Virus record (IMG/VR): IMGVR_UViG_3300025617_000031
Span: 1 to 53,855 of that record
Direction: 5' to 3' (one strand)
DNA length: 53,855 bases
DNA from: a virus
The position numbers and the translations under genes are program-made. Below the pieces are notes generated by a model. The model had not been told where the DNA came from, ran no database searches, and worked only from the letters and a program-made list of their open reading frames with translations. Shown here in pieces: positions 30,501-34,984 of the stretch. Each line of letters opens with the position of its first letter. Position 1 is the stretch's first letter.

Positions 30501-31091
30501 ATGGCACAAATATTCGATGAAATCCTCGCACGAGGTGTCCGTCAGGGACAGATCCCTGCACGATCTCAAGAAGCAAGAGACTGGTTCCGTCAAAAAGCAC
30601 GGCAATCACGGTCTAACGCTGCGTACCCCAAAAACATCATCGATAGTTCAGATAAAAGAAAACCCCGTCTCGGTCCGGGACGAATGCTCACGTTTTTCTA
30701 CGATCCAAAGACAAAAGCAGATCTGCCGTACTACGATAGATTTCCATTGATATTTTTCGTCCAACCTGCAAAAGGTGGATTCCACGGTATCAACTTACAC
30801 TATCTACCACCAAGACTTCGTGCAGTGTTAATGGATCGTTTGTATGAGTTAGCATCAGACAAAAAGTATAATGAAGATACACGACTAGAAATGTCATATA
30901 AGATCTTAAATGGTGCGTCTAAATATAACTACTTTAAACCCACATTTAAACATTACCTATTTAATCATGTACAGTCACGGGTTGTGGAGGTTTCGTCTGC
31001 TGAGTGGGATATCGCATTGTTCTTGCCAACAGAACGATTCGAAAAGGCAAGCAAGTCGACCGTATGGAAAGATAGTAGGAAAATGATCTAA
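30501..31091 (+). CDS. Conserved T4-like morphogenesis protein, possibly gp2-like DNA end protector
   Basis: A 196-aa protein with the strongly conserved marine-phage block GPGRMLTFFYDPKTKADLPY, then YDRFPLIFFV, GGFHGINLHYLPPRLRAVLM and EWDIALFLPTERFEKA. Homologues are widespread in large myoviruses and often lie beside gp4. In T4, genes 2 and 4 are adjacent and gp2 protects packaged DNA ends, so a gp2-type role is reasonable. I am not certain of the family name. It overlaps the next ATG as TAATG. Confidence 0.6.
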   Translation: MAQIFDEILARGVRQGQIPARSQEARDWFRQKARQSRSNAAYPKNIIDSSDKRKPRLGPGRMLTFFYDPKTKADLPYYDRFPLIFFVQPAKGGFHGINLHYLPPRLRAVLMDRLYELASDKKYNEDTRLEMSYKILNGASKYNYFKPTFKHYLFNHVQSRVVEVSSAEWDIALFLPTERFEKASKSTVWKDSRKMI

Positions 31092-31834
31092 TGCCATTCA
31101 ATATACAAAACATAGTATCAGAATTAACAAAGAGTGGAACAGCAAAGACATCGCACTTTGAAGTACAGATCACGGGTGTCGATGGTGACGAAAGAGCAAT
31201 GATTCATCGTTGCGACACTGCGGAACTTCCGGGAAGAACTATTACTACCGCAGAGACACGATTCGGTAACTATGGTCCGGTTGCAAAAGTTGCATACAAT
31301 CAAGTGTATACTGATGTTACAATGTCTTTCCTTCTGAGTGAAGATATGAGGGAAAAGGAATACTTTGAAAAATGGCATCAGGCAATTTTGGGAACTGGTG
31401 CTTTTGAGGGAGGAAGCACTTCCAGTGACTTTAATGGTTTTGGTGGTATGACAAAGTTCGCAGTAGGATATTACGACGACTATGTTGGTACAGTTGAAAT
31501 ACGACAGTTCGGTGAAGGAGGTGATTTAAGATCAATTCACACATTAAATCAAGCATACCCTATGATTCTTGGTGGGGTTGCTATGAATTGGGCAGATGAG
31601 TCTGTCGCAAAACTTACTGTTACCTTTGCATATAGAAATTATAAATGCGTATTCAAAAAACAAGACCAACCGGGACTTGGATCAGGATTCTCACTACGTC
31701 TTGATAAGACAGGAATCTCTGCCAGCTTTAGAAATTCACTAGGTAATATCGGATTTGATAGTGCAATCGGCACAAGTGCTAACATCGATCTAGGTAGAGT
31801 CGGCAAAATAGCAAAATCAGCAAACCTTATATAA
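31091..31834 (+). CDS. 54: Baseplate tail-tube initiator gp54-like (tube-fold)
   Basis: The 247-aa protein has the contractile-tail tube fold signature CDTAELPGRTITTAETRFGN, YGPVAKVAYNQVYTDVTMSF and EDMREKEYFEKWHQAI. T4 gp54 (320 aa) and the tube protein gp19 (163 aa) share this fold. The added C-terminal domain and the neighbours gp4 and gp26 favour the gp54-type initiator over the main tube protein. It would bind gp48 and provide the first ring for gp19. Confidence 0.78.
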   Translation: MPFNIQNIVSELTKSGTAKTSHFEVQITGVDGDERAMIHRCDTAELPGRTITTAETRFGNYGPVAKVAYNQVYTDVTMSFLLSEDMREKEYFEKWHQAILGTGAFEGGSTSSDFNGFGGMTKFAVGYYDDYVGTVEIRQFGEGGDLRSIHTLNQAYPMILGGVAMNWADESVAKLTVTFAYRNYKCVFKKQDQPGLGSGFSLRLDKTGISASFRNSLGNIGFDSAIGTSANIDLGRVGKIAKSANLI

Positions 31835-31857: not shown

Positions 31858-32553
31858 ATGACATTACCATCACTAGGAACTCCGGAGTTCCATACAACAA
31901 TTCCTTCAACAGGACAGGAAATTGCATACCGTCCATTCTTAGTCAAAGAAGAAAAGATTCTTCTTATGGCAATGGAAGGAGAAGAAGATAAAGAAATTCA
32001 ACATGCAATTCTTACTATCCTAGAGGATTGCATTATTACAGATGTCGATGTTAATAAACTCGCAGTGTTTGACATCGAGTATCTGTTTTTAAAACTTCGT
32101 GGTAAATCTGTCGGTGAAATGATCGATCTTAAAATATCTCATACAGATTCAGATTGCGACCACAAAACAGAAATTAGAATTAATCTCGATGATATCAATG
32201 TAAAAGGTGATATCACAGATGGTAAGGTGCAATTGACCGATGATATCGGTGCCAAACTTCGTTATCCAACAATTGCCGATGCGACCAGATATGACTCAGG
32301 TTCTCCGGAAGGAATGTTTAAAATGATCGCATCATGTGTAGAATTTATTTATGATCAAAATAATGTATATCAAGACTTTACAGTAGATGAAATGGTTGAG
32401 TGGTTAGGTGGGTTAAATCAAAGTGCTTTCCAAAAAGTAACTTCTTTCTTTGAAAATCTTCCGAAACTTACTCACGACATCAAATGGACATGTAAAAAGT
32501 GTGGAGAAAATGATACCGTGAAACTGGAGGGACTCAACAGTTTTTTTATGTAG
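31858..32553 (+). CDS. 26: Baseplate hub assembly protein gp26
   Basis: At 231 aa it belongs to the T4 gp26 baseplate-protein family (T4: 208 aa). Features are the IAYRPFLVKEEKILLMAME start, the ILTILEDCIITDVDV helix, and a zinc-ribbon-like pair (C100 region DCDHKTE and C212-KK-C215). In this family the protein acts in hub assembly, probably as a tail-assembly chaperone. A TAGGAG ribosome site precedes it. The last codons, AGT TTT TTT ATG TAG, contain a T_TTT_TTT slippery heptamer that would let about 59 extra residues be added in the -1 frame (see the next entries). Confidence 0.85.
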   Translation: MTLPSLGTPEFHTTIPSTGQEIAYRPFLVKEEKILLMAMEGEEDKEIQHAILTILEDCIITDVDVNKLAVFDIEYLFLKLRGKSVGEMIDLKISHTDSDCDHKTEIRINLDDINVKGDITDGKVQLTDDIGAKLRYPTIADATRYDSGSPEGMFKMIASCVEFIYDQNNVYQDFTVDEMVEWLGGLNQSAFQKVTSFFENLPKLTHDIKWTCKKCGENDTVKLEGLNSFFM

Positions 32554-32726
32554 CACTTAGTCATGATTCGTTGGGCAATTTTTATCAATTGAACTTCGCA
32601 TTGATGCAACATCATAAATATAGTTTGACAGAACTAGATAATATGATACCGTTTGAACGTGACATTTATGTCACTCTGTTGAAAAACTACCTTGAAGAAG
32701 AAGAAGAAAAACTAAAACAGAGGTAA
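31858..32726 (+). CDS. gp26-gp51-like fusion made by -1 ribosomal frameshift (candidate)
   Basis: If ribosomes slip -1 at T_TTT_TTT (32541-32547), gp26 continues through YVALSHDSLGNFYQLNFALM and on to a TAA at 32724-32726, giving 289 aa. The extension is a helical domain (HHKYSLTELDNMIPFERDIY, then VTLLKNYLEEEEE) like small proteins following gp26 in marine T4-like phages, where it is taken as gp51 or a chaperone tail. This parallels the G/GT chaperones of lambda and other tailed phages. The join was found by hand translation. The 0-frame product remains the main one. Confidence 0.65.
32514..32726 (+). CDS. gp51-like extension ORF without its own good start
   Basis: The -1 frame opens at 32514 after a TGA at 32511 and closes at 32726. 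No ATG lies before 32604, inside the conserved part, and only a TTG at 32571 lacks a convincing ribosome site. Conserved residues begin at the shift site itself (FYVALSHDSLGNFYQLNF), so the ORF makes sense as an extension of gp26, not as a separate gene. It ends 2 nt before the EF-hand gene. Confidence 0.65.
   Translation, partial: YRETGGTQQFFYVALSHDSLGNFYQLNFALMQHHKYSLTELDNMIPFERDIYVTLLKNYLEEEEEKLKQR
32541..32547 (+). promoter_or_regulatory. Programmed -1 frameshift site T_TTT_TTT
   Basis: Seven T bases in frame as ..AGT TTT TTT ATG TAG give an ideal X_XXY_YYZ heptamer, with both Phe codons able to re-pair after a -1 slip. The 0-frame stop follows two codons later, which often helps shifting. 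Only a weak 5-bp hairpin (CAATT/AATTG, 32576-32591) is visible downstream. Confidence 0.65.
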
Positions 32727-32728
32727 AC

Positions 32729-33061
32729 ATGACAGAAGAAATCGAAAAGGCAGGATACCATCCTGCAGATACTAACGGTGATGGTGTTGTTACTGAACAA
32801 GAACATGAAATGTATATGGAATTTAAAAGAAAAGAACTGGAAGACAAAGACGCACAACGTGACGCTATTCGCAAGATGGCATGGTTTGCATTGATTGGAT
32901 TACTTATCTATCCAATCGGTATTGCGTTAACATCACTGCTCGGATTGGAGACAGCAAGTCAGTTGATTGCAGATATCGCTCCAACTTACTTTGCATCAAT
33001 CGCTGTGCTAGTATCGGCTTTCTTTGGTGCGGACGCTATTGCGCAGAAAGGCAAAAAGTAA
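32729..33061 (+). CDS. EF-hand membrane protein
   Basis: A 110-aa protein. Residues 14-25 (DTNGDGVVTEQE) form a canonical 12-residue EF-hand loop with Asp at 1, Asn at 3, Asp at 5 and Glu at 12. A charged helix (FKRKELEDKDAQRDAIRK) leads into two membrane segments (about 50-68 and 84-103). Small proteins of this build occur at this locus in related marine phages. Ca2+ binding is predicted. Its place between gp26 and the tape measure suggests a morphogenesis or ejection role, but a free membrane function is possible. Confidence 0.72.
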   Translation: MTEEIEKAGYHPADTNGDGVVTEQEHEMYMEFKRKELEDKDAQRDAIRKMAWFALIGLLIYPIGIALTSLLGLETASQLIADIAPTYFASIAVLVSAFFGADAIAQKGKK

Positions 33062-34984
33062 ATGGCAAATCTACCAACAGTCCCACAATCTGATGTTGAA
33101 GATGCAATCAATAAGTTGAATAATCAGACTCTTGCAGTCGGTGAAAACACTTTTCAGCAACTAAAAATCAATACTGGATTGTTACAGTCTATCAGTGAAA
33201 CTCTCTTGCAAGGGTTGGCATTGGAAGAAACACGGCAAGCATTAGAAAAGCAACGTGAGGGACTGTTGATAGAAGCACTGCGTGAGAAGAAAGATGATAA
33301 GGGCAGTGGACTCGATGACAACAAAAACAAAAAACTTTCTCTAAAAGATTTATTAGGTTTTGATCCAAAAGGATTAGAACTCGCACTTCTAGCAGCGGCA
33401 CTTGGTGCCGCGGCAATCGCACTTAAAACACAATTAGAAGAAGTCGCAACAGCAATTCAAGGATTCGTTGCATTCAAACTTGGTTCTAAAGCAATGGACT
33501 TGTTCAAAGGGTTGGGTAGAATGATACTCAAACCATTTGAAATGGTTGCTAATGCCGCAAGAGGTGTGCGCAATTCTGTACAACAATCTAAATTAGCAGG
33601 ACGACTCGCATCACTCGCAGACGATTTCAAGAAGATGAAGTTCCCTATTACGATGGGATTAATTACTTCTGGATTCATGGCATTACGGGATGCAATCTTA
33701 GTTAAGTTTGGTATCAATCCAAATGGACGACAGATGCGAGATCCTGTCACAGGGAAATTTATCAAGGGCAAAATGACGATCACTCAACAGATCGCAGAAG
33801 ACTTTGGTAAATTATTTAAACGCATTACTGCACCATTGACTACACTGTTTGATGATGCACTAAAAGCAGTTAAATCTCGTATCCCTGCACCAATTACTTT
33901 TATGATGGATAGTGTTGTGGTGTTCTTCACCAAAACAGCATCTTTTGTCAGAGGATTATTTACTACAACTGACGATGTATCAAAGGTAACAAAAGAAGCA
34001 GGTATTATTGGCAAGTTCTTTAGTGGAGTTGCAACAGTCTTAAAGACTACGGGTGGTATACTTGGTGAATTGCTACAACCAGTAAAAGCAGTTCTAGGAT
34101 TCCTAGGAGGAGTAGTATTTGATACAATTGGTGGATTCTTTAAAACAACTGGATCCGTAATCTCTGGTTTGTTTGATTTTATACAACCAGTTTTAAAACC
34201 ATTGAAATCTGTGTTGGGTATCGTAGGTAAGTTTTCAATTATCCTCACACCATTTTTCGCATTGTATGATTTCATCGTAGGATTTTGGGAAGGTTATACA
34301 TCAAGCGAAGGTTCTGTACTTGCAGGACTTGAAGGAGGTTTGCTTGAAGTCTTCCGAGGATTCTTTACGAAACCACTCGACTTGTTGCGTGAATACATCG
34401 TCGCACCGTTCGTTGGTCTGTTCAGTAAAGACGCAGAGAAAGCAGTCAAAGACTTTAGTATTACTGAACTATTCAATAGTGCTTACAACGGTATTAAGAC
34501 ATTCGTTAAAGAGTTGATTGGTAATCCGGGAGGAACAATCAAAGGTATTGTTGCGAACCTACCGAACCCCATTGACTTTATCGGTGAGAAGCTGTATGCA
34601 ATCTTCGCAGGAGTTTCGGAGTGGATTCAAGGAAAATCTTTCCTTCCGGATTTCCTTGCATCACCATTTGATTTTCTTGCCGAACAAATTGCATCGGTAT
34701 TTAATATTGATGCAAAATCTGGTACTGCGATCAAACCACAGATCGAGGGTAATGCGCAAATGGGTGCGGGAGGAACTTCTGCATCAACAGTATCACAGAA
34801 GACTGCATCAGTACAAGAATCACAATCAAGCAAACCTGTCATTGCAACAGTCAACGCACCACAGACAACAATGCAGACGACGAATAACAATAGTCGTTCT
34901 CAGCATATTAATATGGGTGGCGGTGCAACTAACAACAGTGCACCTAAGACAGTTGTCGATGATCCGATGAACGGATTCTCATAA
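33062..34984 (+). CDS. Tape-measure/baseplate hub protein (gp29-like)
   Basis: The 640-aa mainly helical protein has hydrophobic stretches (LELALLAAALGAAAIALKTQ; residues about 325-405) and a Ser/Gln/Asn/Thr-rich tail ending GGGATNNSAPKTVVDD. These are usual traits of tail tape-measure proteins, which thread the tube, set its length and enter the host envelope. T4 gp29 is 590 aa and is made next to hub genes. Sequence alone does not prove gp29 identity, but following the gp26 chaperone pair is the normal place for a tape measure. The start is 1 nt after the EF-hand stop. Confidence 0.68.
   Translation: MANLPTVPQSDVEDAINKLNNQTLAVGENTFQQLKINTGLLQSISETLLQGLALEETRQALEKQREGLLIEALREKKDDKGSGLDDNKNKKLSLKDLLGFDPKGLELALLAAALGAAAIALKTQLEEVATAIQGFVAFKLGSKAMDLFKGLGRMILKPFEMVANAARGVRNSVQQSKLAGRLASLADDFKKMKFPITMGLITSGFMALRDAILVKFGINPNGRQMRDPVTGKFIKGKMTITQQIAEDFGKLFKRITAPLTTLFDDALKAVKSRIPAPITFMMDSVVVFFTKTASFVRGLFTTTDDVSKVTKEAGIIGKFFSGVATVLKTTGGILGELLQPVKAVLGFLGGVVFDTIGGFFKTTGSVISGLFDFIQPVLKPLKSVLGIVGKFSIILTPFFALYDFIVGFWEGYTSSEGSVLAGLEGGLLEVFRGFFTKPLDLLREYIVAPFVGLFSKDAEKAVKDFSITELFNSAYNGIKTFVKELIGNPGGTIKGIVANLPNPIDFIGEKLYAIFAGVSEWIQGKSFLPDFLASPFDFLAEQIASVFNIDAKSGTAIKPQIEGNAQMGAGGTSASTVSQKTASVQESQSSKPVIATVNAPQTTMQTTNNNSRSQHINMGGGATNNSAPKTVVDDPMNGFS

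Follow-up and report, generated by a model that had tools for sequence, protein, structure and literature searches.

Phage lambda makes the pair G/GT, in which the tape measure protein is the partner of the part shared by the two proteins, and the tube protein that of the extension (PMC5009743). The same review of 2016 treats T4 as an exception to the conserved tail-gene frameshift. The tail assembly chaperones of T4-like phages were identified by Vladimirov, Gautam & Davidson (2022, Virology 566:9-15), as stated in two later papers citing that work (PMC10885494, PMC12846349). One of them attributes to it the finding of poly-T -1 frameshift signals in T4-like TAC-N genes (PMC12846349), and the other, the PRFect paper, attributes to it that the short and the long form are encoded by separate genes in some T4-like phages (PMC10885494).

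Herein, we describe a locus of a marine T4-like phage in which, as we consider highly probable, gene 26 encodes a tail assembly chaperone and is translated in two ways, a -1 frameshift giving the gp26-gp51 long form. An initial annotation of this DNA had proposed a programmed -1 frameshift fusing gp26 to a gp51-like tail, and all of the sequence tests agree in supporting that proposal.

Organization of the Locus

The window, i.e., the whole stretch of DNA analysed, is a virus record of 53.9 kb. Its tail and baseplate module is T4-like, and in this module genes for baseplate wedge proteins, hub/lysozyme, tail tube cap, head closure, DNA end protector and tail tube are followed by gp26. From the gp19-type tube gene onwards, the order is gp26, the -1 ORF, one small ORF and a tape-measure-like gene, with a single-strand binding protein gene lying 3' of the latter. 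The features are as follows:

31091-31834: gp19-type tail tube gene, upstream of gp26
31858-32553, + strand: gp26-type protein, short form (TAC-N), 231 aa (Pfam PF12322, E 3.5e-64; PHROG 150, E 7.5e-67)
32526-32531, + strand: Shine-Dalgarno (SD)-like GGAGGG, proposed 5' stimulator, 9 nt before the heptamer (sequence, and anti-SD pairing in relatives)
32541-32547, + strand: slippery heptamer T_TTT_TTT (sequence, conserved in relatives)
32547-32726, + strand: gp51-type C-terminal domain of the long form (TAC-NC) in the -1 frame, 59 codons and stop TAA (PHROG 634, E 3.5e-27)
32551-32553, + strand: zero-frame stop TAG, which ends the short form (sequence)
32555-32589, + strand: region of the downstream stem-loop conserved in relatives, with a weak fold in the window (folding scans)
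32729-33061: ORF of 110 aa between the gp51 segment and the tape-measure-like gene
33062-34984, + strand: tape-measure-like protein, 640 aa (PHROG 1272, E 1.3e-7; synteny with a Cr30 gene)

The match of gp26 to PF12322 (216.9 bits) lies above the gathering cut-off of 24.5. The 3' end of the gene reads AGT TTT TTT ATG TAG, the encoded protein ending in ...LNSFFM*. The -1 frame is open from 32514 up to its TAA and encodes the peptide YVALSHDSLGNFYQLNFALMQHHKYSLTELDNMIPFERDIYV...; read from the slip, its translation is YVALSHDSLGNFYQLNFALM... (codons 32547-32723, stop TAA at 32724-32726). The initial annotation had thus read the junction correctly, both in placing T_TTT_TTT before ATG TAG at the end of gp26 and in recognizing a conserved-looking protein of 59 codons in the -1 frame. 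PHROG 634, which this protein matches, is the family of gp51, the baseplate hub assembly catalyst. The -1 segment also matches positions 236-278 of PHROG 150, i.e., its C-terminal end (E 2.5e-7). No second copy of gp51 was found elsewhere in the window.

The tape-measure-like gene is syntenic with a gene annotated as tape measure in Caulobacter phage Cr30, and its product gave no tblastn match in the phage collection. The initial annotation regarded it as the next large gene; its tape-measure-like character is borne out by PHROG 1272, but it is the second gene downstream, the 110-aa ORF lying between. Near the N terminus, the product of this ORF has a weak EF-hand-like motif; it also contains hydrophobic stretches, and it showed no convincing family match. 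A small ORF is also found at the equivalent position in Cr30 and in Rhizobium phages.

With a single sequence as input, AlphaFold gave a useless model (pLDDT 33.6), and with the family alignment it gave a confident one for gp26 (pLDDT 88.5). Searched against the viral library, this model has mainly gp26-type hub proteins as its neighbours, with one gp51-like protein among them. When the model was compared with the PDB, the tail chaperone HK97 gp13 (2ob9) had the highest probability (0.38), in a match that is not significant (E 1.6-1.7); sequence profiles found no solved relative.

The Heptamer and the -1 Register in Related Loci

Related loci were fetched by protein similarity to gp26 or gp51 and not by the heptamer, and with reference phages added, the scan set comprised 255 sequences, the window included. 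Both parts, gp26 and gp51, are present in 247 of them. In every one of these 247 loci, gp51 is encoded in the -1 frame, and T_TTT_TTN stands in frame at or near the gp26 stop, which is the conservation that the initial annotation had suggested looking for at the 3' end of gp26; the pattern goes far beyond what chance would give. Among them there is neither a fused single-ORF version nor a separately started gp51. The heptamer and the -1 register had likewise been present in 62 of 62 representatives of an earlier, smaller set (90% identity). The eight sequences outside the 247 are two truncated loci, T4, Aes508 and four divergent phages whose tail is beyond the reach of the profile. The latter are Menderavirus YB07, with a T6 run at the junction, and three Ackermannviridae-type phages without one.

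Clustering at 80% identity left 185 representatives, among which the heptamer is T_TTT_TTC (107), T_TTT_TTT (69) or a variant ending in TTA (8) or TTG (1). The gp26 stop follows 9 nt after the first TTT in 155 of the 185. Every representative has T as the last base of the codon preceding the heptamer, while the residue encoded by this codon varies (S, N, D, A, G, F). For the 62 representatives of the smaller set, the chance of such a uniform T is about 10^-16.6 under background codon use, a figure that ignores relatedness. The -1 extension shows selection at the protein level: 59% of its changes fall at third codon positions of the -1 frame, a tendency also seen in gp26, and its alignment is conserved.

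It is also worth mentioning that Salmonella phage GG32 (Kuttervirus; L095 3260-3470) and the Vibrio phages L094 and L096 have a -1 ORF of 50-60 codons after gp26. The window-type heptamer is absent from them, GG32 having GAG ATT TTC ATT TAA and the two Vibrio phages CTT TTT. Another slip site or another mechanism may be in use in these phages.

Signals Flanking the Heptamer

Upstream of the heptamer, there is a sharp increase in anti-SD pairing near position -16 relative to the first TTT, where 90% of the 62 representatives reach -4 kcal/mol or better. Their mean anti-SD energy is -7.5, as compared with -5.2 (sd 0.19) for synonymous recodings (z about -12; this and the other z-scores and chance estimates are optimistic owing to phylogenetic relatedness). 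At the SD position, the two codons GAG and GGG are strongly preferred in the same 62 representatives, and the signal was replicated in the set of 185 (z -14.2). In the window, the distance of 9 nt between GGAGGG and the heptamer falls within the 9-14 nt reported for SD stimulators of -1 frameshifting (PMC5009743).

Downstream of the heptamer, a synonymous-permutation folding scan of the first set gave one clear peak, covering 45 nt from +9 (z -8.6). The peak appeared again at +9 in 130 further representatives (z -13.3), together with a secondary excess of structure around the SD (z -10 at -18). When the sequences were folded one by one, most close relatives had a stem, and another group had one that is different and longer. 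In 33 relatives, stem pair counts exceed those of shuffled and slid controls, and there is covariation in the stem. The window is an exception in this family, its downstream fold being weak (-2.8 kcal/mol over 48 nt, z about +1). RNAalifold applied to the close relatives returned no consensus structure, since the stems of the window and of a subgroup are weaker or of another kind; it was the permutation scan and the pair counts that revealed the downstream stem signal.

In L046, L052, L062 and L072, a very stable hairpin, TTCTCTCT...AGAGGGAA (-13.5 to -18.3 kcal/mol), stands just after the heptamer and differs from the stem of the window's close relatives. Such unlike hairpins across lineages suggest lineage-specific tuning of the frameshift rate.

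Start Codons and Alternative Explanations

In the window, the -1 frame is free of ATG, GTG and TTG from the stop that opens it upstream until 8 codons after the slip, the first candidate start in this frame being TTG at 32571. This agrees with the initial annotation, according to which the -1 protein has no usable start of its own. The conservation of this lack, which it had proposed as a check, held for the window and for 93 of the 185 representatives, which have no such codon near the junction; the other half of the representatives do contain some ATG, GTG or TTG, and in none of the 185 is a junction-near start preceded by a strong SD at normal spacing. Stop-start overlaps of the type TAATG or TGATG in the -1 frame are found in Cr30, S-CRM01, and Vibrio and Rhizobium phages, and some relatives have an ATG 2-4 codons past the slip.

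These overlaps and nearby ATG codons, seen in several relatives, speak for an alternative in which gp51 would be a separate protein made by translational coupling, with restart at a nearby -1-frame codon after gp26; a 30S subunit might be retained for this purpose on the GGAGGG that precedes the stop. We nevertheless judge coupling to be very improbable, since there is no ATG, GTG or TTG at this place in the window and in half of the representatives, and no start has a strong SD at normal spacing. Furthermore, coupling leaves the invariant heptamer and the invariant preceding T unexplained, GGAGGG sits at the spacing reported for -1 frameshifting (PMC5009743), and T4 gp51 holds both parts in one chain. 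A separate gp51 start in the window itself was rejected, as no start codon exists there, and coupling is retained as a minor rival for the relatives with TAATG.

In five loci (L084, L087, L089, L090 and L097), the gp26 stop overlaps a -1-frame ATG as TGATG or TAATG, and it is possible that a free gp51 peptide is made there by reinitiation, besides the fusion.

Still less probable is slippage of RNA polymerase on the T run, by which a base would be added and the edited mRNA would yield the fusion through normal translation. The window does have a run of 7 T, and one added base would lead into the -1 frame. However, such slippage in bacteria has been described on runs of 9 A or T (PMC5009743), the 107 representatives mentioned above have only T_TTT_TTC, and polymerase slippage would leave both the upstream SD and the in-frame position of the heptamer without an explanation. 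The least credible possibility, that the junction is a sequencing error, to which homopolymers are prone, or a pseudogene splitting a single fused gene, is rejected: the register is the same in each of the 247 loci that have both parts, among which are cultured reference phages, and no single-ORF fusion was seen among these loci.

A Model of Gene 26 Expression

Under the preferred reading, a programmed -1 frameshift, most ribosomes would end at the TAG at 32551 and release gp26, the short form. Two tRNA-Phe paired with TTT TTT find TTT TTT again when they move back by one base, and a fraction of the ribosomes would slip in this manner. Base pairing between 16S rRNA and GGAGGG (32526-32531) would promote slippage, and in most relatives the downstream stem-loop would do so as well. 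The slipped ribosomes would read 59 further codons, giving the gp26-gp51 long form. As tRNA-Phe decodes both UUU and UUC, the predominance of T_TTT_TTT and T_TTT_TTC among the heptamers fits this model. If the two forms act like lambda G and GT, the portion that they have in common would form a coat on the tape measure protein, and tube subunits would be brought in by the extension. The slippage itself, its rate and the role as a chaperone are what we infer from this arrangement.

Genes 26 and 51 in T4 and Other T4-like Phages

In T4, genes 26 and 51 are separate and divergently transcribed, and the same holds for Aeromonas phage Aes508. The profile of the fusion matches T4 gp26 up to the FF end, and it matches gp51 of T4 and Aes508 across the junction. 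In hhalign comparisons, T4 gp26 aligned with the short form (E 2e-24), and T4 gp51, over its full length, with the long form (E 1.3e-22); a profile-profile alignment also joined T4 gp26 to T4 gp51 (E 3.6e-7). Other Straboviridae, namely Schizotequatrovirus, Nanhuvirus and Ceceduovirus, keep the frameshift layout. When 14 reference genomes were searched whole, exactly one copy of the gp51 domain was found in 12, and none in the two from Ackermannviridae. The simplest reading is that a putative ancestral frameshift was replaced by a gene pair in the lineage of T4.

Public annotations of the examined reference phages are misleading at this point: the gp51 segment is unannotated in the records of L086, L092, L093 and L095, and those of L082, L084, L085 and L087 present it as an independent gene that has a start codon of its own.

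Comparison with Known Systems

The abstract of the 2022 study on T4-like tail assembly chaperones reportedly names genes 26 and 51 and states that frameshifting is conserved in several T4-like groups. Since the correspondence of gp26/gp51 to G/GT across the T4 group has been published (Vladimirov et al. 2022, as reported in PMC10885494 and PMC12846349), our finding is a further case of a known phenomenon: frameshifting in T4-like tail chaperones had already been described, and the phage presented here is, at the level of sequence, a confirmed additional example. The SD and stem-loop signals may be a new detail, as our literature search found no paper on an SD-like element or a stem-loop at the gp26/gp51 junction.

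The predicted signal layout is of the E. coli dnaX type, with a stem-loop that is clear in the family but weak in the window. What the family has in common with dnaX is an SD about 10 nt upstream, a slippery heptamer and a downstream stem-loop (PMC5009743); dnaX is, however, an unrelated gene, and in E. coli its shift leads to the shorter product, whereas here it would lead to the longer one. The tail chaperone locus of Vandenendeviridae and Andersonviridae (phage Adele, PMC12846349) is similar in that its -1 extension is not interrupted by premature stops and a GTTTTT motif is conserved, although these are other phage families.

Together, gp26 and gp51 correspond to lambda G/GT in layout and, we infer by analogy, in function, with no sequence similarity being claimed. 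In lambda, the heptamer and the frameshift rate are different. What is found in both is a short protein with a -1 extension, encoded upstream of the tape measure gene (Xu, Hendrix & Duda 2004), and our locus has the overlapping -1 ORF between tube and tape measure genes and the X_XXY_YYZ heptamer near the 3' end that mark the G/GT type. The initial annotation had seen in gp26 and gp51 the counterpart of G/GT across the T4 group; the layout and the alignments with T4 gp26 and gp51 uphold this, but as a new inference it was anticipated by the published work.

As for T4 itself, its gp26 is alike to the short form and its gp51 to the whole long form of the phage here; the difference is that T4 has two separate, divergent genes and does not need the frameshift. 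On balance, we lean slightly towards a scenario in which a dnaX-like signal in three parts (SD, heptamer and lineage-specific stem-loop) sets the ratio of short to long chaperone in those T4-like phages that do not belong to the T4 group proper, while the T4 lineage replaced recoding with a duplicated, separately expressed gene pair. If this is true, gene duplication took the place of a programmed frameshift in the T4 lineage. Our finding shows that the long-standing T4 exception to the tail-gene frameshift rule is particular to the lineage of T4 itself and does not extend to the marine relatives, which is consistent with published work.
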